The notes under the pieces: model-generated | Told to the model about the DNA's origin: nothing | Databases searched by the model: none | Seen by the model: only the letters and a program-made list of their open reading frames with translations | Position numbers and translations under genes: made by a program | From: Alphaproteobacteria bacterium SS10 | Lineage (GTDB): Bacteria > Pseudomonadota > Alphaproteobacteria > TMED2 | Reading direction: 5' to 3' | Assembly (NCBI GenBank): GCA_019192455.1 | Contig: JAHCML010000003.1 | Coordinates: 1,452,160-1,516,159, forward strand | DNA: 64,000 nucleotides | Part shown: positions 42,969 through 62,012 of the stretch, piece after piece | How positions within the stretch are numbered: position 1 is the stretch's first letter | Layout of the letters: every line of letters begins with the position of its first letter

Positions 42969-44042
42969 TTAACCGCCGCTGGCAGCACTTGTGATCTGCC
43001 CCTGCAGGTCAAACAGACCGCCCAAAAGCGTCATGATTGTTATGCCAATCAATAGGATAGCAATAGTGTTCAAAACCTTAGCCTGCGCCTTAATCTTGTC
43101 GACACCAGTCTCGATCCATTCGTTGGCAACGGCCCTCAAGCTCTCATCAAATGAGGATAGCGAAGCATAAATTCGCAAATCTTCGACAATTTCAGGATCT
43201 GGAAAGCCATATTTCCCACGGTGAAGTGCATCCCCCAGGTTAGCCCCGGAATTTACATATCGGAGGGCACTGTCAATCCGTTCCCGCATCCAGGGCGTTG
43301 AGTTTCGGCGCAGCTTCCGGAGCACCTCAGGAACCGAGACACCGATAGTGACCAATGCGGCCACAGCCATCAGAAAACCACCGCCCTCAACTAGGCGATA
43401 AATCGACCATGGGGGTATTTTGTCAAAAAAGGCTCGGACGCGCCCCGTCCAACGAGGGGCCGTGATTGAGAACACGATAATAAACACGACCAACCCAATA
43501 GCGATTGGGACCAGCCAGTTATTTGCAATTGCAGCCATCACCCGCATACCGGCTGCCATGCCGGTCCACTCCTCTTCTGGCAATAGGGCGCCAAAGTTTG
43601 GAATGACCTGGACACCAAATAGGTAGAGCATGCCGCCCAGCATCACCAATAGGATGCCGGGATAGGACAAACCACCAATCAGGGCCCCCTTAATAGCCTG
43701 GGAACTCTCTGCCAGTTTGATCACATTCAATAGGGCTTCATCTAGGCGACTACCCGACTCCCCTGCTTCAACAAGCATCCGCTCACCAAGCGGGGCCCAC
43801 CCTTCAAGGGCTTGACCAAAGGGCCGGCCATTTCGATAGGACTGGCGCCAGGAGTCGATCGCGACAGCGACAGGATCACCCTTTTTCTTACCGCCCTTTG
43901 CTGCTTGGTCCCAAAGGACATCAAGTGCCGCCTGTAGGGAGACACCGTTCGAAAGCAAGCCGGCAATCTTCTTGTAAAGGCGCAGGCGAACCTTCGCGTT
44001 TACCTGCAGCTTGGCAAATGAGATTTCTAAGGACGAAGGCAT
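42969..44042 (-). CDS. pilR: Type IVb pilus inner membrane protein PilR (GspF family)
   Basis: A 357-residue polytopic platform protein of the GspF/PilC family. The first domain begins MPSSLEISFAKLQVNAKVRLRLYKKIAGLLSNGVSLQAALDVLWD, followed by SYPGILLVMLGGMLYLFGVQVIPNFG and later WLVPIAIGLVVFIIVFSITAP, SIYRLVEGGGFLMAVAALVTIGVSVPEVLRKL and a final hydrophobic segment. This two-domain arrangement with internal repeats is typical. GGAGAG lies 5 bases before ATG 44042. It comes 48 bases after the PilQ stop and before PilS, the same order as pilQ-pilR-pilS on R64. Confidence 0.9.
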   Translation of the reverse strand: MPSSLEISFAKLQVNAKVRLRLYKKIAGLLSNGVSLQAALDVLWDQAAKGGKKKGDPVAVAIDSWRQSYRNGRPFGQALEGWAPLGERMLVEAGESGSRLDEALLNVIKLAESSQAIKGALIGGLSYPGILLVMLGGMLYLFGVQVIPNFGALLPEEEWTGMAAGMRVMAAIANNWLVPIAIGLVVFIIVFSITAPRWTGRVRAFFDKIPPWSIYRLVEGGGFLMAVAALVTIGVSVPEVLRKLRRNSTPWMRERIDSALRYVNSGANLGDALHRGKYGFPDPEIVEDLRIYASLSSFDESLRAVANEWIETGVDKIKAQAKVLNTIAILLIGITIMTLLGGLFDLQGQITSAASGG

Positions 44043-44090
44043 CTAATCTCTCCAAAGGACCCGCCGACAACGAGCCGAAATGTTGATGAT

Positions 44091-46943: not shown

Positions 46944-48103
46944 TAAAAGCCCGAAAATCCTCCAGGAACCGGGAAGGTGCCGTTCTGGACACTGTTTGTT
47001 CCAATTGGATTAAATCCACCAGACAAGCCAGGCTCCGGCACCACCGCCGGCATTGGCGGCAATGCTGGTTCGTCAGCCATCGCAATGCGCGTTGCAAAAA
47101 TCAGCCGAACATCCTCATCGCCATCTTCATGCCGCGCAACGACACGATCGGGCACGATCGAAGTGATCGTCCACCCACCCGGAATGCTATCGCCTTCTGA
47201 AACCTCAACTTCTCCCCCTTCTGCAATCACTAGATTAGCACGAAGGATACCACCTGTGCCACGTAGACGCTTAACCACCGGGGCGATTGGCTCTGGCTCA
47301 GGTTCTGGCTCAACAACCTCAATTTCCTCTGGCGCTGGCTCAGCGGCCGGCGCTGTAGATGGGGTGGACACACCAATCAAGCTCGCCAACTCATCTAAAT
47401 CGGCATCAAAAGCGGCACCAACCGTAGGATTGGGGTCTGCCACAAGCGATGTTGGAGATTCAACCGGCGCACCAGGCGCAACAATCAAACTGCCCTCACG
47501 AGGAACCGTACGCTCTACCCGTTGACGCTGCCGAACCTGGGCAGCGTCCACCGTGACACCAGCCGCTTCAGCTGCGCTGTCAGCCTCATTCTGAGCTGCT
47601 GCAGCCGCAGCTGCGGCCTCCTCAGCCTCTAAGGCCTGCTCTTCACGTTGAGTCTGAATTTCTAGCGAGCGCAACAAAGCCTCGCGCTGCGCGCGGAGCT
47701 CAGAGATCCGAAGATCCTCCTCAGCCTCACGAATAGCGCGCTGACGCTCCTCCTCTAGGACCGCCTTCTCCTCTTCCTCACGCAGACGCTCACGCGCCTC
47801 CCGCTCTTCGCGCTGAATTCGCTCACGGTCCAGACGACGATCCGCGTTCCGCTGCTCAAGCTCTTGCATCTGGAGATCCAACTCGCGGCGACGAAGCCTC
47901 AAATCTTCCAGGACAACCTCGCGCTCGAGGACCGAAATCTGGCGCTGCAGATCGGTTAGCTGACGGAACACAGAAGCATCGGGCGCGAACTGTGAGGCAT
48001 CGCCCTGCGCCAAGGCAGAAGCCCCGGGCACACTGATTGCAATCATCGCTGCGGCAACAACCGAGGCGACGGAAACACCTGAATAATAACGTTTTTCTAA
48101 CAT
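46943..48103 (-). CDS. pilP: PilP-like pilus protein with long coiled-coil
   Basis: A 386-residue protein placed at the PilP position between pilO and pilQ. A signal-like segment (GVSVASVVAAAMIAISVPGASALAQG) is followed by about 110 residues of Arg/Glu-rich coiled coil (LQRQISVLEREVVLEDLRLRRRELDLQMQELEQRNAD and EREARERLREEEEKAVLEEERQRAI). The C-terminal part carries VKRLRGTGGILRANLVIAEGGEVEVSEGDSIPGGWTITSIVPDRVVARHEDGDEDVRLIF, the small beta-fold of PilP-type proteins. R64 PilP is much shorter, so this is an enlarged version. GGAGGG lies 5 bases before ATG 48103, inside the pilO end; a longer frame from 48145 is rejected. Confidence 0.78.
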   Translation of the reverse strand: MLEKRYYSGVSVASVVAAAMIAISVPGASALAQGDASQFAPDASVFRQLTDLQRQISVLEREVVLEDLRLRRRELDLQMQELEQRNADRRLDRERIQREEREARERLREEEEKAVLEEERQRAIREAEEDLRISELRAQREALLRSLEIQTQREEQALEAEEAAAAAAAAQNEADSAAEAAGVTVDAAQVRQRQRVERTVPREGSLIVAPGAPVESPTSLVADPNPTVGAAFDADLDELASLIGVSTPSTAPAAEPAPEEIEVVEPEPEPEPIAPVVKRLRGTGGILRANLVIAEGGEVEVSEGDSIPGGWTITSIVPDRVVARHEDGDEDVRLIFATRIAMADEPALPPMPAVVPEPGLSGGFNPIGTNSVQNGTFPVPGGFSGF

Positions 48104-48104
48104 T

Positions 48105-49454
48105 TTAACCCTCCAGAGCGGCATTCTGCTGTTGGACTTCTTCATCGGTTAATTCTTCGTAAACCCTACCGGCATACGACCAGGTGGTTCCACCAATCTT
48201 ATAATCGGCCGAATCAACGATCATTCCAGGGAAGCGATCGAATATCTCAGCCCAAACAAGAGGCGGAAGCTCACTGGTAAAGCTGAAAGTAAAATGGGCC
48301 GGCGGACGCGGACGCGGCGCAAGCGTTGGGTCCTCATCTGGCGGCTTTGGCGGGCGCGCTACCTCGGTAAGGATCACACGGGACTCAAGCCCCTGAAATA
48401 ACTCAAGAAAGTTCTGGCGAATTTCTGGCAACTTCCAAGCCACCTGCTCACCCCTCGCCTCGCCATCCAGGCGGAGCGAACCACGCATATTATTGCCGGA
48501 GGCACCGATCGCGGGATCCGCAATGCCATCCAAGCCATATTGAGCAGACGCAATTGAACCACCAGGCACACGCGTCCAGGCGACCTGGGCGCGACTTTCG
48601 GTGCAACGCAGCGTCTGCATCGACCAACCGGGAACCTCGACCGACAGCCGGTCAAGAGCAGCAGCACAAGAGACAGCCCACTCCGACGGCAAGGAAGCAG
48701 CCTCCCAAATCCGGGCAACCGTCTCTTTATTTCTCAACGCCGCGAGCCGCTCAGCCTCCAGCCGCTCAGCTTCCTGGCGGGCGCGCAGAGCCTCCTGCTG
48801 CTTACGCATCAACTCTTCTTGGCGCGCAATCTCCTCCGCCCGCATCCCCTGGTAGATCGAATACCCGAGATAACCAAGGACACCGACACCAACAACAGAA
48901 GCCGCAGCCGCGATCTTCACCGACTTCGGCAAGCGGCTAAAGAAGTCATTCAGATAGGAGAGCTTAGGCTCCTCATGCCCCTGCAGCAGCTCGTCAAGCG
49001 GGGTGGTATCACCACCCATCCCCCACTCCTCAGGGGTAAACACTTGATCCCAGCCGCCACGAACGAACTCGGTCTCAAACCGGGTCCGCGGCTCATCCTC
49101 ATTGTCATAAAGAACATCACCATCCGGAAGGATGGCATCACGGCGAGAGGCGACAAACCACCAGCCATTATCAGTAGCAAACACCGCCAGCCAGTTACCG
49201 GTTAACGCATCCGCAAGGCACGCAGCCCCTGCAGGCATACCGGATTTATGGCCATAGCTGGTCCAGCCGATAGCCCACTGAGCGACGAAACCCTCGCGCA
49301 TGACAAAGAGGTCGGCCTGATTGACCTCCTGCTTTGCCGCGACCTTAGCTTCGCGCTTTGCTGTCTTAGGATCTTCAGCAGTCTGCCAGAACATGCCAAC
49401 GGCATATTCCTGGTCAGCGACTGAAATCGAACCCGATCGTTCCTGATCCTGCAT
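48105..49454 (-). CDS. pilO: Type IVb pilus PilO (PilO2-like) protein
   Basis: A 449-residue inner-membrane protein of the PilO2 family of R64-type pili. N-terminal blocks: YAVGMFWQTAEDPKTAKREAKVAAKQE and DNGWWFVASRRDAILPDGDVLYDNED fit the family's actin-like start; a membrane helix AAAASVVGVGVLGYLGYSIYQGM spans about residues 180-205, then a coiled-coil (RQEELMRKQQEALRARQEAERLEAERLAAL) and a periplasmic domain. Start ATG 49454 has AAGGGG 7 bases upstream. It sits between the pilN terminator-like hairpin and pilP, and its stop is 1 base from the pilP ATG, so translation of the two is coupled. Confidence 0.85.
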   Translation of the reverse strand: MQDQERSGSISVADQEYAVGMFWQTAEDPKTAKREAKVAAKQEVNQADLFVMREGFVAQWAIGWTSYGHKSGMPAGAACLADALTGNWLAVFATDNGWWFVASRRDAILPDGDVLYDNEDEPRTRFETEFVRGGWDQVFTPEEWGMGGDTTPLDELLQGHEEPKLSYLNDFFSRLPKSVKIAAAASVVGVGVLGYLGYSIYQGMRAEEIARQEELMRKQQEALRARQEAERLEAERLAALRNKETVARIWEAASLPSEWAVSCAAALDRLSVEVPGWSMQTLRCTESRAQVAWTRVPGGSIASAQYGLDGIADPAIGASGNNMRGSLRLDGEARGEQVAWKLPEIRQNFLELFQGLESRVILTEVARPPKPPDEDPTLAPRPRPPAHFTFSFTSELPPLVWAEIFDRFPGMIVDSADYKIGGTTWSYAGRVYEELTDEEVQQQNAALEG

Positions 49455-49596
49455 GCGAATCCCCTTAAATCAAGCCTAGCCCACTTGATTAGACGCACTA
49501 TAGCAGCAGGTTCACGGTAAGTCGGGGCGAAATTTGCCCCACCCATGCAGGATTCGTAGAGCGAGTCGTTTTAACAACACGCTTTTTAAACACCAA

Positions 49597-49628
49597 CGGG
49601 GCGCTCGCTAGTCTCAGCGAGCGCCCCG
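49597..49628 (-). terminator. Strong hairpin between pilN and pilO (possible attenuator)
   Basis: CGGGGCGCTCGCT (49597-49609) pairs perfectly with AGCGAGCGCCCCG (49616-49628). It is 23 bases past the pilN stop. The sequence after it on the minus strand is not T-rich (TTGGTGTTTAAAAAGC), so it may limit read-through or protect the upstream mRNA end rather than stop transcription fully. Confidence 0.6.
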
Positions 49629-49650
49629 CAAGGCCTAAAAGCACTACCGA

Positions 49651-51390
49651 TTACAGCAAATCACCACGCAGAAGCTCTCTAGAGTTCTGAATCTTTGGTG
49701 TAATCAGGACAACAACAATCTCACGGGCAACTTCGGCCGTTTTGGAGCCACCAAGAGCAATATTCTCTGGAACGCCCTGCCCAACCTCAGTTGTGTCGTT
49801 GCTAGCCTCTTCAAAACCAGCCAGTGCAAGGGTCTGACCGCTTCGAACGATGGCTTGTTGAATAAAGCTTGTGACATCAACCGTCGGGATCTGCACGGCC
49901 GCCGCGCTATCCCCAAGCCCCAAGGCCACATTCACCAGGGAGACTAGTTCACTAATGTTGATGGCATACTGAAGCACAACACCACCATCGGCGAGGATCT
50001 TTGGCGTCATCTCAATCGAGAAACCGGTCACCAAATCCTCGACTGTTGCCGTAATCGTCGTTGTGTCGCCACCATCGCCGCCATCTTCAGTTTCTTCCTC
50101 GACCTCGGCAATAAACCGGGTTTGGGTCACCTGCTGGAACGGAACTGTCATGCCATTTGTGGTCACGAGCGTCACAGAGTTCACAACCGAGGCCTTCTCC
50201 TCACGGGCAATTGCCCGTGCTGTTGCCCGACTGCCAGCAATGCTGTCGAGGTTCTCGCTCCCGCCAACAATTGGATCGAGGACCAAGGCAGAAATCGCAC
50301 CAGTGGATGCCACAGGATCAAGCGACGTACCTGGTGTAGTCGTTGTGACCTGAAGCGCATTCTCCAAGAACAGGGAAAGATCGAAATCAATAGCATCTGA
50401 CTGCTCAAGCTCGATTGATAGAACCTGTACATTCAGCGATATCTGGCGAGACAGCTTCTCGTTCTGCTCTGTAATGAATTCAGCGACTAGATCGAGAACA
50501 TGCGGACGGGCAGACACCGATAGCGTGCCACTGGAGGGCGAAACGGCTACCTGGCCATTCGTCCCCACCAGGCCAATCACCTGCTCAGAGATCTCATTGA
50601 ACATGTCGGTGGCAGTGCTTCTGCTTGCCTCAATGCTGGATGAGAGACCAAAGCCACCCGTGTCGGCATCACCAGATGCCGTCGTCCCGACCGTTGTATT
50701 GGTATCGAGGATCGAAGCGAGTGCCAAAAGGGTGAAGACCCGGGTCTCTAGCTCAAAGAAGCGGATCGTATTGTTCTTGTACTCCCAGTTTGTATTGAAC
50801 CGGGTGGACAACAAATCCAAAAGCCCACCAAGGGGGCCGGAATAAGACAGCTGAATAGTATCGCCGCTTGGCTCAACGAATGAGCCACCACCAAATCCAA
50901 CTGGTGCGGGCGCACCACCTGGCGCACCAAACCCACCAGCAGCACCAAACCCGCCAGCAGCACCGAAACCAGCTCCCAGTGTTGGATCACCGGGGATCGG
51001 CGCAGCACCGCCAAACTCATCAACCGTGAAGTCGATCAGTACCGGGATACCCGTCAGGGTAGTGATTTCCGTCGCGATATCCTGAATGCCCAGCGGCTCT
51101 GCTGAGATCAGGGTCACCATATCGGTGGACCGTGGTAGCGGGTCGCCCTTAGCGATGCGAACACTATTGCCACCAAGCCAGATACCGTCATCGGTCTGAA
51201 CCGTATCAGGGGCACGCAGCGGACCAGGCCGCTCAACAAAGCGGTCCAATGTCACCCGCGCCTCAGCGGCATCAACCTGCATCGCAACTTCGGCTGCGTT
51301 GAAGGCTTGGCAACCGGTCAGGACAACGACACCAGCCAGCAATCCAACTGCGTGGCGGCCCAAGCCCGATAAATGCTTCATGTTTTTCAT
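49651..51390 (-). CDS. pilN: Type IVb pilus secretin PilN (lipoprotein)
   Basis: A 579-residue outer-membrane secretin. A lipoprotein signal peptide (GLLAGVVVLTGCQAF) has the lipobox LTGC. After an N0-like domain (QDIATEITTLTGIPVLID) there is a Gly/Ala-rich tandem repeat (GFGAAGGFGAAGGFGAPGG, about residues 130-150). The C-terminal secretin domain has SRQISLNVQVLSIELEQSDAIDFD, KASVVNSVTLVTTNGMTVPFQQVTQT, EMTPKILADGGVVLQYAI and RSGQTLALAGFEE with REIVVVLITPKI. This order is typical of the PilN/BfpB group. AGGA lies 9 bases before ATG 51390. It is 5 bases after the PilL-like gene stop. Confidence 0.93.
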   Translation of the reverse strand: MKNMKHLSGLGRHAVGLLAGVVVLTGCQAFNAAEVAMQVDAAEARVTLDRFVERPGPLRAPDTVQTDDGIWLGGNSVRIAKGDPLPRSTDMVTLISAEPLGIQDIATEITTLTGIPVLIDFTVDEFGGAAPIPGDPTLGAGFGAAGGFGAAGGFGAPGGAPAPVGFGGGSFVEPSGDTIQLSYSGPLGGLLDLLSTRFNTNWEYKNNTIRFFELETRVFTLLALASILDTNTTVGTTASGDADTGGFGLSSSIEASRSTATDMFNEISEQVIGLVGTNGQVAVSPSSGTLSVSARPHVLDLVAEFITEQNEKLSRQISLNVQVLSIELEQSDAIDFDLSLFLENALQVTTTTPGTSLDPVASTGAISALVLDPIVGGSENLDSIAGSRATARAIAREEKASVVNSVTLVTTNGMTVPFQQVTQTRFIAEVEEETEDGGDGGDTTTITATVEDLVTGFSIEMTPKILADGGVVLQYAINISELVSLVNVALGLGDSAAAVQIPTVDVTSFIQQAIVRSGQTLALAGFEEASNDTTEVGQGVPENIALGGSKTAEVAREIVVVLITPKIQNSRELLRGDLL

Positions 51391-51395
51391 GATGA

Positions 51396-52109
51396 TTAAT
51401 CCTGTTTATCAGTGCCGCTGGTCACGACAATGACGCGGTTACCTTTGAAGACTGTTGCCCGAACTGGTGGCTCTGCGCGCGAGAACGCACGGATCAGGTT
51501 AGAGGCCGCGGTCTGGAAATCGCCGTAGAACTCGGCTGAGGCACGAAGTGGGTAATCCCGCTCCGTTTCCCAAGCGATGACCCAGCCGGACTGGCCGCTC
51601 CACTCATCCAGTGTTTGGCGAAGCGTTGAACCACCGAGCGCGGTCCAGGCTGGCACTTCCTCAGGGCCGGCGAGCTGCCCCTCACCGAAGCTTGCCAAGG
51701 CCTGCTCTTCTGGTGATGCAACCCGTGGCGCCGCCCGCACAACCATGAGGCTGCCCTGGCCATCCTCAACGAAAGAGAGGCCAAGTGGGGCAACCGCCTC
51801 GGTCAGTACGTCACGCCATGGACGACCGCCTGCCCAAGATGTCGTTGCGGTTCGATCGACATCGAACTCAAAGACCACCTGGAAGCGGGGTGGCACCACC
51901 TGCGCGACCACGAGATCGAGCGGTAGATCCTTACCGAAACCCTCAACAAGGGCCTCATCCTCGCCGGTGCCACCAATGGGCTCCGGTGGCCGATCCACAA
52001 TTTCAAATCCAGCCAATGCTGGCATCCCGGACATATTCAGCCCGATAGCCAAAACGGCAGCAGCTGGTATGGCGACAGCGCCCGCCATGAGCTTCGTGAG
52101 ACGGTTCAT
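51396..52109 (-). CDS. PilL/TcpQ-like pilus protein
   Basis: A 237-residue secreted protein. It starts MNRLTKLMAGAVAIPAAAVLAIGLNMSGMPALAG, a signal peptide. The rest has two repeats like the TcpQ/PilL C-terminal domain: RPWRDVLTEAVAPLGLSFVEDGQGSLMVVRA and GSTLRQTLDEWSGQSGWVIAWETERDYPLRASAEFYGDFQTAASNLIRAFSRAEPPVRATVFKGNRVIVV, the latter a clear TcpQ block. Such proteins are found with the PilN secretin and are thought to help its assembly. The stop is 5 bases from pilN; its ATG (52109) overlaps the previous stop (TGATG). A GTG at 52112 is the alternative start. Confidence 0.82.
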   Translation of the reverse strand: MNRLTKLMAGAVAIPAAAVLAIGLNMSGMPALAGFEIVDRPPEPIGGTGEDEALVEGFGKDLPLDLVVAQVVPPRFQVVFEFDVDRTATTSWAGGRPWRDVLTEAVAPLGLSFVEDGQGSLMVVRAAPRVASPEEQALASFGEGQLAGPEEVPAWTALGGSTLRQTLDEWSGQSGWVIAWETERDYPLRASAEFYGDFQTAASNLIRAFSRAEPPVRATVFKGNRVIVVTSGTDKQD

Positions 52110-52378
52110 CACCGGTCATCTCCTTTTGCATCGCCATTCAGGCTAGGCAGCGGAATACCGCCACCAATCAATCCACTTGCGTCATACGGGTCGCCATCGA
52201 AGGCGCCCTCTTCTTGCATCCGGCCATCACTATTGCGGCGGCGCTGTTCTTCAACAAAGCCACGCAGCAAGGTGCGCCTCACCCATTCCGCCCGACGCGG
52301 CATGGCCGCATAGGCATCCAAGAAATCACATTCAACCGGCACGTCAGGCCGAAGGTGAATGACCACTCGCTTGCTCAT
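52109..52378 (-). CDS. Small basic protein, possibly ribbon-helix-helix
   Basis: An 89-residue protein between icmT and the PilL-like gene. It begins MSKRVVIHLRPDVPVECDFLDAYAAMPRRAEWVRRTLLRGF, with a strand followed by two helices, the outline of a ribbon-helix-helix DNA-binding fold. The remaining residues are acidic/glycine-rich and disordered. A strong GGGAGG lies about 8 bases before ATG 52378, and the stop overlaps the next start, so it is a real translated gene. The function may be regulation or relaxosome-like DNA binding, but this is only inference from predicted fold. Confidence 0.6.
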   Translation of the reverse strand: MSKRVVIHLRPDVPVECDFLDAYAAMPRRAEWVRRTLLRGFVEEQRRRNSDGRMQEEGAFDGDPYDASGLIGGGIPLPSLNGDAKGDDR

Positions 52379-52744: not shown

Positions 52745-53902
52745 TTAGTGACCTCCCGCCTCGGCGCGCGCCGTTACAAGTTTCAGCGTCCGTTCGTCGA
52801 TGACGCCTTGCTCAAACACTTTTCGAGCCGCCATCTCCATGGTCTGACCGCGCTCTTTCAGCAGTTGCCGCGACGCATCGGGCCAATCGTCCACATCAAA
52901 CTGGAGCATCTTGTCCCGGACATACTCGTCAAAGACCAAGTACTCCCGGATCGCGACCCGGTTGCCGTCAATCGTTCGAAGCAGCGCCTGGGTGATCACC
53001 ATGCGCAGGGATTCCATAAGATCGATCGCGCGGCCTTGCCGCTCCTCAGCGGGGAAAACCGCACTCATCCGTCGGATGGTCTCTGCAACGCCATTCGCGT
53101 GAACCGTTGAGAAAACCAAGTGACCCGTCAGGCTGGCCTCACCACAGGCGGCGATAGTTTCAGCATCCCGCGCCTCACCAACGAGAATGATGGTCGGCTT
53201 ACGACGCAGCGCATTACGAACACCGGCCGCAAAGCTTGGTAGGTGACGCGGGATCTCGGTTTGAGAGATGATCGTCGAGGGCCCAGCCACATTGTCGTAG
53301 ACGAATTCAATCGGCGCTTCGTAGGTCAGGATCTTGTGGTTGGCATCAGGATCTTCGGCTAGACCGCGGATCATCCCCGCAAGCAGCGTACTCTTACCCG
53401 AACCGGTTGGGCCGGTGACGAGCACCATGCCTTGTCGCGGTGAGTAGTTTTCAACGATCTCCGGCTCAACATTCATTGATGAGAGCTTGGGTGGATCTTC
53501 CGGCAAGGTACGGGCCGTGATCTGAATGCCGTCGGTACCATCAACAAGAATACCGGTCGCATTGATACGGAAGCGATAACGCTGGTTACGACTAACCTTC
53601 ACCTCATAGGCGATATCGATGTCTCGACCAGACGCAATCTGGGCCGCACCGTTGGGGCCATAAATCCGGTTCAGAACATCGACAACCTCAGCCGGGCTCA
53701 ACCGCCGCTTAGTCACCGGTTGGATACGGCCATAAACATCGGCCCAAACCGGCTGCCCGGTTTGGTACGTGATATCTGAGGCCTGAATTTCGAAGCACCA
53801 TTTGAAGACATCATCGATGGCGTCGTCGGAGAGCCGGCTTGGCTCAACCAGCATCATCGCTGACTTTTTCTTCAGGCGAACACCCTTCACCGGCTTGTTC
53901 AT
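52745..53902 (-). CDS. dotB: Type IVB secretion ATPase DotB
   Basis: A 385-residue hexameric ATPase of the PilT family that powers Dot/Icm transfer. The Walker A is VTGPTGSGKSTLLAGMI near residue 167; Asp box YEAPIEF; Walker B ILVGEARDAETIA; His box TGHLVFSTVHANGVAETIRRM. The N-terminal PAS-like domain (IQASDITYQTGQPVWADVYGRI) fits DotB. R64 TraJ is the homologue. Its ATG overlaps the dotC stop by 4 bases, so it is co-translated with dotC. Confidence 0.96.
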   Translation of the reverse strand: MNKPVKGVRLKKKSAMMLVEPSRLSDDAIDDVFKWCFEIQASDITYQTGQPVWADVYGRIQPVTKRRLSPAEVVDVLNRIYGPNGAAQIASGRDIDIAYEVKVSRNQRYRFRINATGILVDGTDGIQITARTLPEDPPKLSSMNVEPEIVENYSPRQGMVLVTGPTGSGKSTLLAGMIRGLAEDPDANHKILTYEAPIEFVYDNVAGPSTIISQTEIPRHLPSFAAGVRNALRRKPTIILVGEARDAETIAACGEASLTGHLVFSTVHANGVAETIRRMSAVFPAEERQGRAIDLMESLRMVITQALLRTIDGNRVAIREYLVFDEYVRDKMLQFDVDDWPDASRQLLKERGQTMEMAARKVFEQGVIDERTLKLVTARAEAGGH

Positions 53903-54783
53903 GATTTCGGCCTCACCACCACTGGTGTCCAGGTGCTGGACCGTTCATTCAAGCGTGCAGGTACGGTGATCCGTACCAGGCGATCACCAATCTTCAGCTC
54001 ATTACCACCGCCGGTAACACCACGGTCAGCTGCGGCGAAGTACATTTCAGACAGGATGCCCTGGGCCACCAGCGCACGGTAGCGGACCATGCCAGCGACA
54101 TCGCGCTCCAGCTTGGCCAGATCAGCCTCAAAAATATCCTCAGCCTGGGCAATGCCTTGCTTCCAGCCCTCGGCCACATAGCGGCGCCAGACTGTGCGTT
54201 CCTCATCCGTCTTTGGCAGGATTTCAGCGGCCGGCATCTCCACCTCATCCCAGGTGCGGACAAGATAATCACGCCAGTTGGGCATGGTGGTTACGATGCG
54301 CCCCGGTTGCACGATGCGGTAGATCGTGTCGGCGGATGAAGCCACCTGTCCGTCACCGGAAACACGGTAGAGGTCCAATACCTCATTAACGATTGGCGGC
54401 ATGACGATCGAACCGTTCGGTGCGGTGATCGCTAGGCGTTGTAACTGGAAAATACGGTTCAGCTGAAGCTCATGACGCTCCAGCATCGCATTAATCTGGA
54501 AAGAACGTCGGGCTAGCCCCGCTTGCGCGCCAACCATAAGTGCAGCATCGCGCAGACCCTCAAACAGGACCGGGCCAAGATTGTCTTCATCAATCTCGGC
54601 GGCAAGCTCCTGCAAGGTCGTGAGCTCAAGCGGCTCAGCCAAATCAGGTGCCAATGCTTCAGGCAGATCGACCCGCAACCGCGGCGGATCTTCGGCATGA
54701 CCGCACGCAGCAAGCAACACACCGGCGATCAGCACCAGTGGAAGCCATGACATACTGCGAGGGTTACGCCTAGTTAGGGCCAT
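53899..54783 (-). CDS. dotC: Type IVB secretion lipoprotein DotC
   Basis: A 294-residue outer-membrane lipoprotein of the core complex (TraI homologue). The signal peptide LPLVLIAGVLLAACGH has the lipobox LLAAC. DotC signatures include LGPVLFEGLRDAALMVGAQAGLARRSFQINAML, VNEVLDLYRVSGDGQVASSADTIYRIVQPGRIVTTMPNWRDYLVR and EGWKQGIAQAEDIFEADLAKLERDVAGMVRYRALVAQGILSEMY. GAGG lies 6 bases before ATG 54783, inside the dotD end (14-base overlap). In Legionella dotD-dotC-dotB has the same order. Confidence 0.95.
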   Translation of the reverse strand: MALTRRNPRSMSWLPLVLIAGVLLAACGHAEDPPRLRVDLPEALAPDLAEPLELTTLQELAAEIDEDNLGPVLFEGLRDAALMVGAQAGLARRSFQINAMLERHELQLNRIFQLQRLAITAPNGSIVMPPIVNEVLDLYRVSGDGQVASSADTIYRIVQPGRIVTTMPNWRDYLVRTWDEVEMPAAEILPKTDEERTVWRRYVAEGWKQGIAQAEDIFEADLAKLERDVAGMVRYRALVAQGILSEMYFAAADRGVTGGGNELKIGDRLVRITVPARLNERSSTWTPVVVRPKS

Positions 54784-55312
54784 ATCGGACCTCAATTCGG
54801 CGCTGGGCTACATCAACCGAAACCAGTGCACGGCCTGTCGCCTGATAACCAACATTGCGGAGTATCTCGACCAAGCTCTCATTATCGCGAGTGATATCAA
54901 CGACGATTGGCACGGTCGGTTGATCGCCAACGGTGCGGAATTCATACCCACCCTCAGCAGCAATCCTTGCCACCAGCGATGCCAGCGGTCCGTTCCAATC
55001 AATATTAGCCTTGCGGTCCAGCCCCGGCGGCGCCTGTGCCACCCGCCCCGGGTCAGGCACTGGCGTTCTCGTCTGTTCAACTAAAGACAGACGATCTAAG
55101 GCCGTTGATGTACGCTCTGCGGCTGCAAGTAACGACTGGGACACAGGGTCCAAGGTCGTCACGACCGAGGGCGGTGAAATCGCTGCTGCCGTTTCAAATG
55201 GTGCCGGCACGCCGGTGCAACCGGACACGCCGATTGCCATCGCGGCCATGGCCGCCACCCCTCGCAGCTTGCTCAATACTTTGCTCACAGTGCGGGCCTC
55301 GCCCTCAAACAT
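54770..55312 (-). CDS. dotD: Type IVB secretion lipoprotein DotD
   Basis: A 180-residue lipoprotein of the Dot/Icm core complex (TraH homologue). The signal peptide MAAMAIGVSGCTG gives the lipidated Cys at lipobox GVSGC. The C-terminal N0-like domain is NGPLASLVARIAAEGGYEFRTVGDQPTVPIVVDITRDNESLVEILRNVGYQATGRALVSVDVAQRRIEVRYG, the typical DotD region. A start at 55312 (MFEGEART) is used; a GTG at 55288 (MSKVLSKLRGV) is a shorter choice with a better signal peptide. It is the first of dotD-dotC-dotB. Confidence 0.9.
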   Translation of the reverse strand: MFEGEARTVSKVLSKLRGVAAMAAMAIGVSGCTGVPAPFETAAAISPPSVVTTLDPVSQSLLAAAERTSTALDRLSLVEQTRTPVPDPGRVAQAPPGLDRKANIDWNGPLASLVARIAAEGGYEFRTVGDQPTVPIVVDITRDNESLVEILRNVGYQATGRALVSVDVAQRRIEVRYGPN

Positions 55313-55550: not shown

Positions 55551-58500
55551 CTATTCGGCAGGCACCTGTCGACGCTTCTTCTTGGCACCGGCAGGCGGGC
55601 GTTTGCCTTTTGACGGTCCTTTACGTGGCTTGCCCTTTCGCTCACCACCGCTGCCTTTAGGTTTCCCGTAGCCAGCAACCTCGGCCAGTTTACCGCCGCT
55701 TTGCGCCTCCAACTCTTCAGTTGAGCGCATCTGCACTAACTCCTCGACGATCACATCAATCAAGCTGTTAGCGGCTTCTTCGTCGAGCCCGTCATCAGCA
55801 CTTTCCGCCATGGATGCAACGCGGCGCTCAATCTCGCCTTTCGCAGATCCAGATGGGAACCGCTCGGCCAGCCGGGAGCGAGCTGTCCTGGGTCCAACCC
55901 TGTTATAAAGGCGCTTCCTGATCTCCGCGTCTTCAGCGGTGGTGGACATGGCCCAAAGCTCAACGGGGCCAAGCGTGTTCACCAGGAACTGTTCGTAGCG
56001 ACCATCTTTAAGCGAGAGAACGGCCATCAACGGCGCGCCCGCGGAGGTTGGGCCACTCAAACGGTGACGCAGGACAAATTTCGCCGTCGCACCGAGAGCA
56101 AACCGCTCCGTACACTCTTTAACGGCGCCCTCACTACCGGCGCCAAGGATCCAGATACCCGTCGCCTGATCGACCATCTGGTCATCAAAGTCATCGAGAA
56201 GCTGAGATGCCAAGCAGATCTGCACGCCCCACTTCCGGCCCTCACGAATATCGATCTTTACCTGGGCCCGAACGGCATCCGCCGCACCGGTACGGTGGAA
56301 TTCATCATAGATAAGGCGCTTCGGTGATTCCCGAAGCTCCCGGATACGGGCCATATGGAAGGGCCGGTAAGATGGCGTAAAGCTCTTCAGCACTTCCTCA
56401 TTGAGGAAGTAGTCCCGCGCCAACACATACCGCGCCAGCATATACATAACCGCCGTTTGACGATCGGCCGAGGCACCACCACGCGGCGCAACCTCATCAA
56501 GGTCAAGCGCACAAACACGAGCACCGCCAATATCAAAGCGGGTCGGAGAGGCCAGAATTGGATATTCACGGATCGAGCCCGAGATCATCCGCGTAAAGGC
56601 GACGATCACACTCTCACCAGTAGGGATCTTGGTATCAGCGAACAGATCCTCAACCGCGCGAGAACGGGCGGCCACAACCACATCTTGAAGGACCGGAACG
56701 GCGTAACGCTGGGCCAGCATGGCGCCATGCTCATTCCCAGAGTCATGAAGGGCGTCAACAACCTCCCACCAAGTTGGTTTCTCTTGGAGGCTGATATTGT
56801 GGTCCTTGATGTATTGATCGACCGTCGTGTCATCGCCCTGGGAATAAGGGCGCGGCATACCGGCCTCTGAGAACATCTTGTACATCTCATCGACAACGAT
56901 ACCGACCAAGTCGCTCATCCCATCATAAGGGTTGGGCTGACCAAGCGGGGTCGCGAGGAGCGTCAGAAGGTTCACGATGAACGCACGCTCTGATGGCAGC
57001 GGATGGCGACTGCCGAGCTGGGTATCAAACGGATTGATCGCGTTGTCTGGGCGCATCTGCAGGCGTTTATACATCGCCTCATGCTTCCGCCCCTCTGGCA
57101 GGGCCTCCTGCATCAGGGACACCAGACCAGATGATGATGGGCCAATATCAATGATCGCGATACGCGGCAGTTTGGCTGACCCGGTGCTAGTGCCGGGCGC
57201 TAGACAGCAGGCCAGGTTGATGGTGTTCATCAAAACCGACTTACCGTAACCAGGCGGCGCGAAGACCAGATCGATCCAAGATGTCTGCTGTGAACTGCCC
57301 GGTTGATATGGCCAGGGCTTACCATCTGGCGTTCGGAATAGAACCGGCCCGGCCTTCCAAGGGTTTGCCGCGCGGCCCCATGGCAACCAGTAGACCGCAT
57401 CCTTAATGGGGGCGATCCCTGCTGGGGCCGTTGATCGAACCGCCAGTCCCAGACCAGAAGACATGACGCCCTCTAGTGGGTCACCGGCCATATCGGATGC
57501 CTGGCAGTGTCCCCAGCCTTCAATCGCCCGAAGGAGTACAGCACCACGTTCACGCAGCACCTTCTCCTCATCAACCTTTGCCCAGGTGGCGAAAGACACC
57601 CGGAACTTAACAATCGTTTCACCCTCGATCGTGGAGGCCTTCAACTGCTTGATGGCGTTGTTGATCCGCTTGTTGTCATCAGAGGCCCAGGTCAGCAGGG
57701 ATGCAAATATGCCCTTCATGGAAATTTGGTCTGCACCGCCACCTTCAAACAGGAAGGATATGCGCCAGGGCATACGGTTCTCAGTCAGGCGGGACAGCAA
57801 TGCAGAGAATGCCTGAACCTCTTCCGGTGCTAGGGTCAGATCAACGCCCGTAAACAGCAAATCGCCGACCCGGACCGCCGTCGGTGATATCTGCTCGGCA
57901 TCCCGGTTGAACATCTGTTGCGACAAGGTCGGCCAGATCAGCGCGGAGATATCGTTCTTCTCCCCTCCATCTAGGCCGCGACTTGGTGTCGGATCGCCAG
58001 GCAAGCTGGGCTTCCACTGATTATCGATCGTATCTGGGTAAACGGCGGTTCGGATGGTCCGGAGGGCTTCATGCACCTCCATCAGCTCACAGCGAAGCCC
58101 CAGCGCCGACATGTCCTGCTGCATAGAGGTGATAAAGCCAAGGTGTCGAGAGCGGATATTCTCCGGCGTAAAGGCCAAGCGCATACCGCGTACGTTTTTG
58201 GGCTGTCCCTTTAGGAAATCCCCGGCTTCTTTTTTGGCCTGCTCAGCCTGCGATTTCGTGAGACTGACGGGGCGCGTCCAGAGCGCCATATATAAGCCTT
58301 CAGCCGCCAAATAGCTCGGCAGTCGGCGCTTACGTTCATTGAACAAATCATCGAGCTCTAGGCCAATTGCGCTCGCTGCTTTTTCCGCCGGCTGCAATGC
58401 CCGAGCAACAGAGGTTGGTGCGCCATCGGGGTCCCTGACAAACCAGACCTGGAACGCATGGCCAGCTCGATCGAGATAAGGAGCCAATGCGATACGGGCG

Positions 58501-58703
58501 CCTTCGTTCAGCTCTTCAAGCTCAACGCCGCCAACGATTTTACGCGCACCATCAATGCGCATCAGGGTCATCAACGACCCATCATTACCCACGAATGTGC
58601 GTTTATCGTCGACGGTCTCTAACGCCATCAACGACCCAATAGGCTGCTTAGCCGTTAAGGCTAGAGTTGCCAGTATCTGATCAACATGATCGAGAATAGC
58701 CAC
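55551..58703 (-). CDS. icmB: Type IVB secretion ATPase DotO/IcmB
   Basis: A 1050-residue VirB4-like ATPase of the Dot/Icm system (TraU homologue). Walker A is FAPPGYGKSVLMNTINLA near residue 484; Walker B is RLIYDEFHRTGAA near residue 798. The IcmB N-terminal domain begins MAILDHVDQILATLALTAKQPIGSLMALETVDDKR and the family's ARGKR-like C-terminus is replaced here by a basic tail (KGKPRKGPSKGKRPPAGAKKKRRQ). The start is GTG 58703, with AAAGG 9 bases before. It lies downstream of IcmJ by 200 bases, a gap with no recognised element, in the order J-B as in Legionella. Confidence 0.94.
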   Translation of the reverse strand: MAILDHVDQILATLALTAKQPIGSLMALETVDDKRTFVGNDGSLMTLMRIDGARKIVGGVELEELNEGARIALAPYLDRAGHAFQVWFVRDPDGAPTSVARALQPAEKAASAIGLELDDLFNERKRRLPSYLAAEGLYMALWTRPVSLTKSQAEQAKKEAGDFLKGQPKNVRGMRLAFTPENIRSRHLGFITSMQQDMSALGLRCELMEVHEALRTIRTAVYPDTIDNQWKPSLPGDPTPSRGLDGGEKNDISALIWPTLSQQMFNRDAEQISPTAVRVGDLLFTGVDLTLAPEEVQAFSALLSRLTENRMPWRISFLFEGGGADQISMKGIFASLLTWASDDNKRINNAIKQLKASTIEGETIVKFRVSFATWAKVDEEKVLRERGAVLLRAIEGWGHCQASDMAGDPLEGVMSSGLGLAVRSTAPAGIAPIKDAVYWLPWGRAANPWKAGPVLFRTPDGKPWPYQPGSSQQTSWIDLVFAPPGYGKSVLMNTINLACCLAPGTSTGSAKLPRIAIIDIGPSSSGLVSLMQEALPEGRKHEAMYKRLQMRPDNAINPFDTQLGSRHPLPSERAFIVNLLTLLATPLGQPNPYDGMSDLVGIVVDEMYKMFSEAGMPRPYSQGDDTTVDQYIKDHNISLQEKPTWWEVVDALHDSGNEHGAMLAQRYAVPVLQDVVVAARSRAVEDLFADTKIPTGESVIVAFTRMISGSIREYPILASPTRFDIGGARVCALDLDEVAPRGGASADRQTAVMYMLARYVLARDYFLNEEVLKSFTPSYRPFHMARIRELRESPKRLIYDEFHRTGAADAVRAQVKIDIREGRKWGVQICLASQLLDDFDDQMVDQATGIWILGAGSEGAVKECTERFALGATAKFVLRHRLSGPTSAGAPLMAVLSLKDGRYEQFLVNTLGPVELWAMSTTAEDAEIRKRLYNRVGPRTARSRLAERFPSGSAKGEIERRVASMAESADDGLDEEAANSLIDVIVEELVQMRSTEELEAQSGGKLAEVAGYGKPKGSGGERKGKPRKGPSKGKRPPAGAKKKRRQVPAE

Positions 58704-58903: not shown

Positions 58904-59614
58904 TTAAGAGGTTGGAATTCGCTTAACCAACTTGGACGCCGCCGCTCGCCATTGCTTCGGCCGCGACTTTGCAAAGGGGCCATGGCGAGACACCCAGAAA
59001 TCAACCATCTTGGGGAAGACGTCCCGCTCACCAACATATTTCCGGCCTAACGGCAGGAGGCGAACACCATCCAACACTTCTGCCCGCTTCTCATAAGCTT
59101 CTTCACTGATAGCCAGAAGCGCCTCACCCAAATCTGCGGGATCACTGGTGCCCAGACGGCGGCGCGCCTCCTCAGCCCGGATACGGAGGCCAGAGAAGAT
59201 GGACTCCCCGGCTTCGTTGGTTGTGCCCTTCGTACGCATGGCGACAAAGCAACCGCGGCTCAAATGGTTCAGCTCCGTTTGCGAGAGCTCAGGCAGCCAG
59301 ATCAGCTCCCCCTCACCGGCTAGACCAGCCCGACCGATATGGAAGGACATGTGGCAAAAACTACAGATGGTGGCGAGGTTTCTGGGGTCGTGATTGCTGT
59401 GATCACCATCCAGGTGATGCACTTCCTGCCATTTACGGGATTGGAAACCACAGAATTTGCATTTGAACTGATCCCGCTTGAACACCTTCGGCTTCACGGC
59501 ACGAAAGCGCTCATCAGCTTGGGCATTAGCCTCGTCCTCGCCGCGCCAAGTCGCGCGCTTAGCCCCTAGGACCAGACGTAGTTCGTTCTGCTTTTTCTTC
59601 TCAGATGCGGCCAC
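58904..59614 (-). CDS. icmJ: Type IVB secretion coupling-complex protein DotN/IcmJ
   Basis: A 236-residue cytoplasmic zinc protein of the type IV coupling complex. It has the HNH-like zinc knuckles CKFCGFQSRKWQEVHHLDGDHSNHDPRNLATICSFCHMSFH: Cys-x2-Cys, His-His, Asn and a second Cys-x2-Cys, the arrangement of DotN, in which the metal sites are structural and nuclease activity is lost. N-terminal Lys/Arg/Asn-rich residues follow the GTG start (59614, the best in-frame choice). It lies between the icmD cluster and icmB, the same relative order as icmD-icmJ-icmB of Legionella. Confidence 0.9.
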   Translation of the reverse strand: MAASEKKKQNELRLVLGAKRATWRGEDEANAQADERFRAVKPKVFKRDQFKCKFCGFQSRKWQEVHHLDGDHSNHDPRNLATICSFCHMSFHIGRAGLAGEGELIWLPELSQTELNHLSRGCFVAMRTKGTTNEAGESIFSGLRIRAEEARRRLGTSDPADLGEALLAISEEAYEKRAEVLDGVRLLPLGRKYVGERDVFPKMVDFWVSRHGPFAKSRPKQWRAAASKLVKRIPTS

Positions 59615-59685: not shown

Positions 59686-59716
59686 CGAAAACCGCCCGGC
59701 CAATGACCGGGCGGTT
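59686..59716 (-). terminator. Terminator after the icmD cluster
   Basis: On the minus strand AAACCGCCCGG pairs with CCGGGCGGTTT around TCATTGG, followed by TTCGTTTGG. It lies about 45 bases beyond the last icmD copy and 72 before the icmJ start, so icmJ may need a promoter of its own or read-through. Confidence 0.85.
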
Positions 59717-59761
59717 TCCTGAGATTTGCACCCTCAATAGCGGGCTTAATGCCGCTATCGA

Positions 59762-60163
59762 TTACTGACGGGTAATTGACGTCAGGCCACCACCATTTGC
59801 ATCAGTGGAGTTGCTTCCAGCATTACCAAACAGAGTACCAACCGAGGTACCGAGCACCGCTGGCAGCGCAATCAGTGCACCGGCCACAACCAGGCGAACC
59901 ATAGCGTGGGATAATGGCGTGCCCTGTGGGTTCTCAGAGTGCTGCTTGAACTTCAGCAGGCCACTGGCACCGAACACCAAGCCAACGATGAAGGAAGCCG
60001 CACCGATAAGGTCGGTCAAAGAACCAATCTGATCGCGAAGCTGGTTACCCATGCCGGCAATACCGCCGTTGGCTAATGCTTCGGTTGCAATCATCATGGA
60101 GACACCAACAGCCGACAGCGCAGCGCCGACCATTAGAAGTTTTTTACGAGTAAACTTAGCCAT
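59762..60163 (-). CDS. icmD: IcmD/DotP-like protein, copy 1
   Basis: A 133-residue inner-membrane protein of the IcmD/DotP family. It has a signal-like hydrophobic start (KKLLMVGAALSAVGVSMMIATEALANG), then GIAGMGNQLRDQIGSLTDLIGAASFIVGLVFGASGLLKFKQHSENPQ and GTPLSHAMVRLVVAGALIALPAVLGTSVGTLFG, two membrane helices around a polar loop. This is the last of three tandem copies. The core (about residues 28-110) is almost identical to the other two, and the C-terminus is identical to copy 2. AGGA lies 8 bases before ATG 60163. Legionella has only one icmD. Confidence 0.88.
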   Translation of the reverse strand: MAKFTRKKLLMVGAALSAVGVSMMIATEALANGGIAGMGNQLRDQIGSLTDLIGAASFIVGLVFGASGLLKFKQHSENPQGTPLSHAMVRLVVAGALIALPAVLGTSVGTLFGNAGSNSTDANGGGLTSITRQ

Positions 60164-60200
60164 TTTCATGGTCCTTTCATAAATCGGCTCGCGCCGAAGA

Positions 60201-60231
60201 AAAAGAAACGGGGCTAGCCAAAGCCAGCCCC
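60201..60231 (-). terminator. Hairpin between icmD copies 2 and 1
   Basis: On the minus strand GGGGCTGGC and GCTAGCCCC form an imperfect stem followed by GTTTCTTTTTC. It lies 9 bases past the copy 2 stop. It may be a partial terminator that graduates expression between the copies. Confidence 0.6.
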
Positions 60232-60239
60232 AAATTTCG

Positions 60240-60632
60240 TTACTGACGGGTAATAGAGGTCAGGCCACCACCATTCGCATCAGTGGAGTTGCTCCCAGCA
60301 TTACCAAACAGAGTACCGACAGAGGTACCAAGCACCGCCGGCAGCGCAATTAGTGCACCGGCCACGACCAACCGAACCATGGCGTGGGACAATGGCGTAC
60401 CCTGTGGGTTCTCAGAGTGCTGCTTGAACTTCAGCAGACCACTGGCACCAAACACCAGGCCAACGATAAAGGAAGCCGCACCGATAAGGTCAGTCAGGGA
60501 ACCGATCTGATCGCGAAGCTGGTTACCCATGCCGGCAATACCGCCATTGGCCAATGCTGGTGAAGCAATCAGAAGGCTGGCACCAACCGCCATAAGGCTT
60601 GCACCAGCGATGAGAAGAGTACGCTTTTTCAT
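60240..60632 (-). CDS. icmD: IcmD/DotP-like protein, copy 2
   Basis: A 130-residue member of the same triplicated family. The N-terminal signal segment differs (MKKRTLLIAGASLMAVGASLLIASPALANG), while the following 90 residues match copy 1 residue for residue, including the C-terminal FGNAGSNSTDANGGGLTSITRQ. DNA differs from copy 1 at silent and N-terminal sites. AAAGGA lies 8 bases before ATG 60632. The pattern of diverged start and homogenised core suggests gene conversion. It precedes copy 1 on the minus strand. Confidence 0.88.
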   Translation of the reverse strand: MKKRTLLIAGASLMAVGASLLIASPALANGGIAGMGNQLRDQIGSLTDLIGAASFIVGLVFGASGLLKFKQHSENPQGTPLSHAMVRLVVAGALIALPAVLGTSVGTLFGNAGSNSTDANGGGLTSITRQ

Positions 60633-60708
60633 TGTAGCCATCCTTTAGTTCAGAAACTTAGCTTTCTGGATTTCAAAACCGCGCCTGTACACACGGCAAC
60701 CAATAAAT

Positions 60709-61095
60709 CTACTGACGAGTGATCGAAGTCAGGTTACCGCCGCCAGAGTTGGTGACAGAGCTTGGACCGTTGGCGAACAACGTACCGACCGAGGTACCGA
60801 GCACTGCTGGCAGGGCGATCAGCGCACCAGCCACAACCAGGCGAACCATAGCGTGGGATAATGGCGTGCCCTGTGGGTTCTCAGAGTGCTGCTTGAACTT
60901 CAGCAGGCCACTGGCACCAAACACCAGGCCAACAATGAAGGAAGCCGCACCAATAAGATCAGTCAGCGAGCCAATTTGCCCCTGGAGCTGGGCGCCCATT
61001 CCGGCAATGCCACCGCTAGCCAACGCCTCAGAGGTTGGGACCACGGCAACCGCCGCAACGGCCAACCCGATCGCGATTATTGTTTTGTTTCTCAT
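60709..61095 (-). CDS. icmD: IcmD/DotP-like protein, copy 3
   Basis: A 128-residue member and the first copy in the direction of transcription. The leader is MRNKTIIAIGLAVAAVAVVPTSEALASG; the core GIAGMGAQLQGQIGSLTDLIGAASFIVGLVFGASGLLKFKQHSENPQGTPLSHAMVRLVVAGALIALPAVLGTSVGTLF is shared, but the C-terminal tail (ANGPSSVTNSGGGNLTSITRQ) differs from copies 1 and 2. GAGGGG lies 8 bases before ATG 61095. An upstream -10-like TATAAT at 61282-61287 may drive the cluster. Confidence 0.88.
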   Translation of the reverse strand: MRNKTIIAIGLAVAAVAVVPTSEALASGGIAGMGAQLQGQIGSLTDLIGAASFIVGLVFGASGLLKFKQHSENPQGTPLSHAMVRLVVAGALIALPAVLGTSVGTLFANGPSSVTNSGGGNLTSITRQ

Positions 61096-61394
61096 TTTAA
61101 TGCCCCTCATCCTGAACCCGGCTTCTCAACATTGAGTGCTGGGAGGTTGCAGATCACGCCAGCTTCGACAAGTCGCTTGCTCACGATGATCATGATTTCC
61201 TTAGCTGTTGTTGCCGCAATCAGCAGCGCCAACCCACTAACTCGTCAACCTGCATGCCTTGTTATCAACATTTTTGCCCAAATTATAACAAAATTTTTGT
61301 TACACTCTTAGGCAGCGGTTAACTGACTGATAATATTTACTTATTGCCCCACTGACCCGCATAAAGATGACAGATTCTACCTGTGATTTCCTCG
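61096..61394 (-). promoter_or_regulatory. AT-rich promoter region upstream of icmD copy 3
   Basis: A perfect TATAAT lies on the minus strand at 61282-61287, next to the near-palindrome AACAAAATTTTTGTT (61288-61302), in a strikingly AT-rich patch between icmC and icmD. No good -35 is found at 17 bases. The remainder of the 299-base gap holds nothing named. Confidence 0.4.
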
Positions 61395-62012
61395 CTAAGT
61401 GACCGCAACTAGACACTTACTGTCACAAATCGTCTCCTGTATCAGGTCAACCAAGGCAATGACGTTCGCCGCCATAACGCCCCCCAGAATATGGGTAGCA
61501 GCGGTTCCATAGGACGCCTGCCCGGACCCTTCCGCAGCGCGTTTAAGCATTAGGATGCCCCGAACAAAGGCAATCCAGCCCACCAACTGGACAATCAGGA
61601 TCAAGACAATGACAACCTGATTCCACCTATCAGCAAACGCAATCACTGTTCCTCCGGCACCAAAGCCATCGCCAAGCCCACGATAGGACAGAATGTTGTT
61701 GGCACCCTCTTCAAGGAAGATGGTTTCATTAACGGTCTGGAATGTCCCAGGCAGGCCAATCAGTAGGCCAGCGACTAGGAATCCAACAATAGGACCAGCG
61801 TAAAGGGATTGGGTTGGCGAGAAACCGCCAGAAAACTGGGAGGCGCGGGACAGTCGAACAAGTGACTGCACCATGATCAATAGGCCGACGATGTAACAGA
61901 AGGCTGCAACGAGAATGAAGGCGATGCCATCGCCGAAGGTACCATCATTGCGGGTGCTAACAGCATCGCTGCCGAATAACGCCTCGCCAAACCTGATGAT
62001 TGCCTCATCCAT
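61395..62012 (-). CDS. IcmC/DotE-like (or DotV-like) inner membrane protein
   Basis: A 205-residue protein with four hydrophobic segments: IAFILVAAFCYIVGLLIMVQSLVRL, SLYAGPIVGFLVAGLLIGLP, NQVVIVLILIVQLVGWIAFVRGILML and HILGGVMAANVIALVDLI. This pattern, its position between IcmG/DotF and IcmD, and the Cys pair near the C-terminus (ETICDSKCLVAVT) fit the IcmC/DotE family; IcmC, DotV and IcmD are related, so the exact name is uncertain. GGAGGG lies 9 bases before ATG 62012. It has its own 178-base upstream gap before the DotF terminator. Confidence 0.75.
   Translation of the reverse strand: MDEAIIRFGEALFGSDAVSTRNDGTFGDGIAFILVAAFCYIVGLLIMVQSLVRLSRASQFSGGFSPTQSLYAGPIVGFLVAGLLIGLPGTFQTVNETIFLEEGANNILSYRGLGDGFGAGGTVIAFADRWNQVVIVLILIVQLVGWIAFVRGILMLKRAAEGSGQASYGTAATHILGGVMAANVIALVDLIQETICDSKCLVAVT

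Follow-up and report, generated by a model that had tools for sequence, protein, structure and literature searches.

Within the stretch of DNA analyzed here (the window, 64,000 nucleotides), three intact icmD/dotP open reading frames are arranged head to tail at positions 59762–61110 of the minus strand, where they are placed between icmC/traQ and icmJ/dotO inside a type IVB secretion cluster. The order of the minus-strand genes is IcmC/DotE, three IcmD, IcmJ/DotN, DotO, DotD, DotC and DotB, and upstream of icmC are a DotH with a strong Pfam match and a TrbI-domain DotG candidate. The icmC/dotE gene (traQ-like, 61395–62012) is assigned from the NCBIfam profile conj_TraQ_IncI1, which it matches under the cut-off of that profile (E=1.4e-5), and from the map of IcmD-like units described below, while icmJ/dotN (58904–59614) matches NF038221 with 137.7 bits (cut-off 100). 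The dotO/icmB gene, encoding a traU-like ATPase (55551–58703), is recognized by 46–49% identity to DotO of relatives and by gene order, and dotD, dotC and dotB (52745–55312) are recognized by PF16816, PF16932 and TIGR02524, the last with 494.7 bits (cut-off 463.3).

Directly after dotB (window 42969–52112) are R64-like thin type IV pilus genes, i.e., TcpQ/PilL-like, secretin, PilO, PilQ-like ATPase and PilR/TcpE-like genes. The combination suggests, as judged from sequence, a type IVB secretion system with a thin-pilus cluster of the IncI-plasmid type residing on a chromosome. DotA/TraY and a coupling-protein-like gene are found on the same contig, separated from the main cluster by about 0.8 Mb (G000:C3:703206-707913; L169-L171). 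Protein export would be a more likely function than conjugation because no match to PF03432, the relaxase family tested, was found in the genome, which is rated 100% complete.

The three icmD/dotP genes and the signals between them

The first gene in transcription order, nearest icmC, is copy 60709 (60709–61095); its frame stays open to 61110 and the probable start is the ATG at 61095, with AGGGG about 8 nt upstream. The middle copy 60240 (60240–60641) and the last copy 59762 (59762–60169) have probable starts at 60632 and 60163, respectively, each with AAAGGA about 8 nt upstream; all three starts were placed by the distance to a Shine-Dalgarno-like site in the sequence. An AxA motif (ALA) closes each of the signal segments and is followed by S, N and N, respectively, and the predicted mature product is form A for copy 60709 and form B for the other two. 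At the DNA level the repeats are in register (3 × 300 nt, with 92% and 82% identity to the reference copy), their likeness is far above the chance expectation, and the genome contains exactly these three icmD copies. Three tandem copies with differing signal segments, as given in a preliminary description of this DNA, are thus borne out by the three same-strand frames with in-register repeats and by the protein alignment, respectively. The assignment to IcmD/DotP made there is also supported, i.e., by gene order, by homology to TraR and by the Pfam family DUF6750, the profile of which is passed by copies 60240 and 59762 (32.5 and 29.9 bits; cut-off 27), with copy 60709 just under the cut-off (25.7 bits).

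A terminator-like hairpin with a T-rich tail lies between copies 60240 and 59762 (60209–60232, minus strand; z -3.4), and a strong hairpin with a weak T tail is found between copy 59762 and icmJ (59689–59720, minus strand; z -5.7). Terminator-like hairpins between icmD copies or before icmJ were seen in the window and in 9 of the 14 relatives tested. In the 299-nt gap before copy 60709, an extended -10-like element, TGTTATAAT (61282–61290, minus strand), is a candidate promoter of the triplet; this pattern is matched twice in the window where 0.74 matches are expected, which is weak, and such matches are not rare. An AT-rich palindrome, AACAAAATTTTTGTT (window 61282–61307), overlaps this element and is a possible operator.

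Divergence among the copies and gene conversion

The protein core, i.e., alignment columns 47–114 (68 residues), is identical in all three IcmD copies, in agreement with the preliminary description, which overstated the matter in calling the core nearly identical also in DNA: nucleotide alignment gives 87–91% identity, with 19–27 silent differences in 204 nt. The pairwise dS values of the core are 0.44, 0.44 and 0.74 with dN = 0, and outside the core the silent divergence of the ends reaches saturation. Because the silent sites are so far diverged, it is selection and not recency that keeps the core protein constant; most of the sameness of the core is explained by purifying selection, and the predicted genes are old duplicates. 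A recent duplication, proposed earlier, is not supported by these values.

The likeness of copies 60240 and 59762, noted earlier for a shared tail, comprises the entire predicted mature protein, in which all 102 residues agree in spite of 24 silent changes. In copy 60709, 13 mature positions differ, all of them outside the core (4 before and 9 after), and overall IcmD identity within the array is 77–89%. The three genes are thus predicted to yield two mature forms, not three, and since two of the mature products are identical, the multi-subunit ring of variants considered in the preliminary description is apt only in part.

Tandem duplications easily arise and the assembly is a draft of 16 contigs, so that the extra copies might be neutral leftovers or an artefact of assembly. 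This explanation is very improbable: the silent divergence of the core, at least 0.44, excludes a copy made in assembly, a source that was rejected on this ground together with the earlier suspicion of assembly duplicates, and neutral leftovers were rejected because the 24 silent changes are accompanied by not one replacement among the 102 mature residues. The same pattern also recurs in relatives (see below).

Gene conversion, which the preliminary description offered as the other origin of the shared core, is supported for one short tract. Between copies 60709 and 59762, 28 successive degenerate codons are identical (permutation p<5e-5), and within alignment codons 70–94, i.e., positions 60835–60909 of copy 60709 and 59888–59962 of copy 59762 (both minus strand), all of the 7 informative silent positions join these two copies, while outside this segment most such positions join copy 60240 with copy 59762. 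The incongruence is significant when scanned over shuffled labels (p=0.0012), and a swap of partners of this kind is not what one would expect of codon bias. The silent sites thus support conversion between the outer copies in one tract of about 75–90 nt, with purifying selection responsible for the remaining sameness.

The distribution of the differences bears on two further explanations. Copies 60240 and 59762 differ almost only in the signal peptide region (17 of the first 33 alignment columns) and are separated by a hairpin, as might be expected if the copies differed mainly in timing or export, with signal peptides and terminators providing separate control of the same product. Signal peptides, however, drift freely, so that a difference need not mean anything, and the stretches between the icmD copies yielded no second promoter-like site; we regard this explanation as quite improbable. 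Alternatively, the array may vary an exposed pilus or channel surface so that different target cells are bound, as has been proposed for Bartonella TrwL and Anaplasma VirB2. The differences are indeed confined to the mature N-terminus and the C-tail, like the hypervariable ends of Anaplasma VirB2 (PMC3556328), and Bartonella trwL is also tandemly duplicated (PMC2610397), but with the same mature product predicted from two of the three genes there is one variant only, and the Bartonella and Anaplasma arrays are larger, which makes surface variation unlikely as the main role.

Separate and fused IcmD-like units in relatives

Among the genomes compared, the source genome is the only one in its family and order, and a recognizable IcmD is found in 14 of 385 genomes of the same class. 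Because searches at the family and order level return only this genome and an IcmD-only scan of genome contigs yielded nothing, DotO was used as an anchor, giving 80 named loci, largely from Micavibrio or unclassified alphaproteobacterial metagenome-assembled genomes (MAGs). Copies were counted in the 47 loci, including that of the window, in which the stretch of IcmC and IcmD is complete.

One separate IcmD is present in 37 of these loci, most of which also have fused units (see below), two are present in 8, and three in 2 (the window and L067). A single copy in relatives, considered in the preliminary description, is therefore the majority state but does not hold throughout, since 10 of 47 loci, counting the window, have two or three genes. 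In a tree based on 75 columns only, in which the deeper branching is weak, copies from one genome group together in the window, L040, L059, L067, L094, L102 and L125 and, with less certainty, in L043, while L055 and L056 have an older pair in common. An identical core with divergent ends, as in the window, is seen in L040, L067, L094, L102 and L125. The simplest reading of these sequences would be repeated expansion, or expansion combined with concerted evolution. In two related genomes a solo icmD is surrounded by housekeeping genes at a site apart from the secretion locus (L036:9940-10332 and L037:8603-9004). A MAG labelled Micavibrio aeruginosavorus (L096, CP066681.1) has this type IVB cluster; the paper on the genome of M. 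aeruginosavorus ARL-13, in contrast, states that evidence for a type IV secretion system is lacking (PMC3189940).

The IcmD profile also detects units inside IcmC. The IcmC of the window is composed of two diverged IcmD-like units without any extra fused unit, and across architectures the last two units of the relatives' IcmC match these two. The number of extra in-frame units fused to IcmC is 0–4 per locus, i.e., relatives with a fusion carry 1–4 further units in front of the two IcmC units; the front units have a mean identity of 30–43% to separate IcmD, compared with about 20% for the two IcmC units. The fused proteins comprise 306–740 residues (L084:6522-8513, L131:6408-8630, L072:6975-8693 and about 40 more loci), those with five units and about 570 residues being common and six units being found in L084 (663 residues) and L131 (740 residues). 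A structural model of a fused protein displays six hairpins in register (pLDDT 56), from which no ring is claimed. The numbers of fused and of separate units show no significant trade-off (Fisher p=0.17; the loci are not independent). IcmC and IcmD thus appear, from their unit composition, to be built from one common block, which accords with the published remark that the plasmid proteins TraQ and TraR are remote homologues of each other and resemble VirB2 (PMC6112013).

Subunit amplification and comparison with known systems

IcmD/DotP and IcmC/DotE are among the less understood parts of the Dot/Icm machine. A possible link of IcmD to VirB2 was addressed by several comparisons. Of 69 IcmD family members, 27 match DUF6750 and 14 match the TrbC/VirB2 profile at E≤0.01 (best 3.9e-5), with the window copies below the cut-off, and an hhalign comparison of the IcmD family with VirB2 is weak (probability 24%; reversed control 8%). 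The layout of a signal peptide followed by a two-helix hairpin is present in IcmD, the AxA motif being read from the sequence and the helices (35–77 and 84–111) from a low-confidence monomer model (pLDDT 64). A fold search of the PDB with this model gave no significant match, the best weak one being ATP synthase subunit c (E=0.92), nor did a fold search with the fused-IcmC model; profiles of IcmD and of fused IcmC, when run against the PDB sequences, found no real match, so that no solved structure of an IcmD/DotP or IcmC/DotE relative was found by either route, and a PHROGs search yielded nothing. A pilin-like channel or filament is a plausible but not an established consequence of the VirB2 link.

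The array is probably best explained as a copy-number expansion of a VirB2-like subunit, which provides dosage and one surface variant while the core is kept interchangeable. On this view, the three genes would be paralogues that code for the IcmD/DotP/TraR subunit of a type IVB secretion system on the chromosome, and their small, VirB2-like products would have a signal peptide that is cleaved off and a membrane hairpin of two helices. If IcmD is needed in more copies than other parts of the machine, extra genes would supply this dosage, a view taken because two mature products are identical and terminator-like hairpins follow the IcmD genes; such hairpins would allow IcmD to be made in larger amounts than the products of the machine genes downstream. 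Purifying selection, with conversion now and then, would keep the assembling core interchangeable and leave the ends free to vary, so that copy 60709 may provide one surface variant able to co-assemble with the main form. Against this expansion for dosage counts the observation that relatives mostly manage with one separate icmD (37 of 47), and the weakness of the VirB2 link in profile comparison and fold, as well as the absence of a reported pilus of the Legionella Dot/Icm system (PMC9371333), count against the explanation as a whole.

A broader proposal, possible but rather doubtful, is that IcmD-like hairpins are interchangeable protomers of one membrane ring or short filament, the make-up of which is set by gene architecture: the window would supply three free units and a bare IcmC, while Micavibrio-type relatives would carry 1–4 units covalently on IcmC. 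If this were true, the fused IcmC proteins would be natural single-chain concatemers from which the number of subunits in the type IVB inner-membrane channel, and their order, could be read. More generally, the IcmD expansions and IcmD-IcmC fusions suggest that both proteins are composed of one repeated unit, the number of which is changeable by evolution, and this variation offers a direct route to testing a VirB2-like channel or filament and its stoichiometry. The type IVB machine of Pseudomonas putida is described as killing other bacteria (PMC9519443), and the relatives considered here include predatory Micavibrio.

TraQ-TraR of IncI-type (MPF_I) plasmids and IcmC/DotE and IcmD/DotP of Dot/Icm systems are homologous to the proteins of the window and are found in the same order as there, DotI-DotH-DotG-x-IcmC-IcmD-x-DotO. 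The plasmid proteins TraQ and TraR (IncI/IncM) have been described as members of the VirB2 family that are needed for transfer, and within the IcmD/DotP/TraR family plasmid TraR is the one protein for which a requirement in type IVB secretion is known (PMC6112013). The IncI-type plasmids examined have one TraQ and one TraR each, whereas the window harbors three IcmD. Amplification within the VirB2 family is already known from Bartonella, Anaplasma and Patescibacteria; our search of the open-access literature turned up neither an amplified IcmD in a type IVB system nor an IcmD-IcmC fusion, and nothing that treats IcmD/DotP together with pilin. The tandem trwL genes of the Bartonella Trw system (VirB2 family) have variant ends, as does the window array (PMC2610397), but the amplified subunit is not IcmD, and Trw, which is considered to present variant pili, is of type IVA, whereas the window encodes a type IVB system. 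Anaplasma VirB2 paralogues (8–15 copies) share with the present array a conserved two-helix middle, with variable regions close to either terminus (PMC3556328), but they belong to a type IVA system and are more numerous and more divergent. In Patescibacteria, arrays of 2–11 VirB2 pilin genes are found in tandem or one gene apart (PMC12102498), with a within-array identity that averages 25%, compared to 77–89% in the window. In the Micavibrio-like IcmD(n)-IcmC proteins, the same IcmD-like unit is multiplied at the same locus as in the window, but there the units are joined in one chain.
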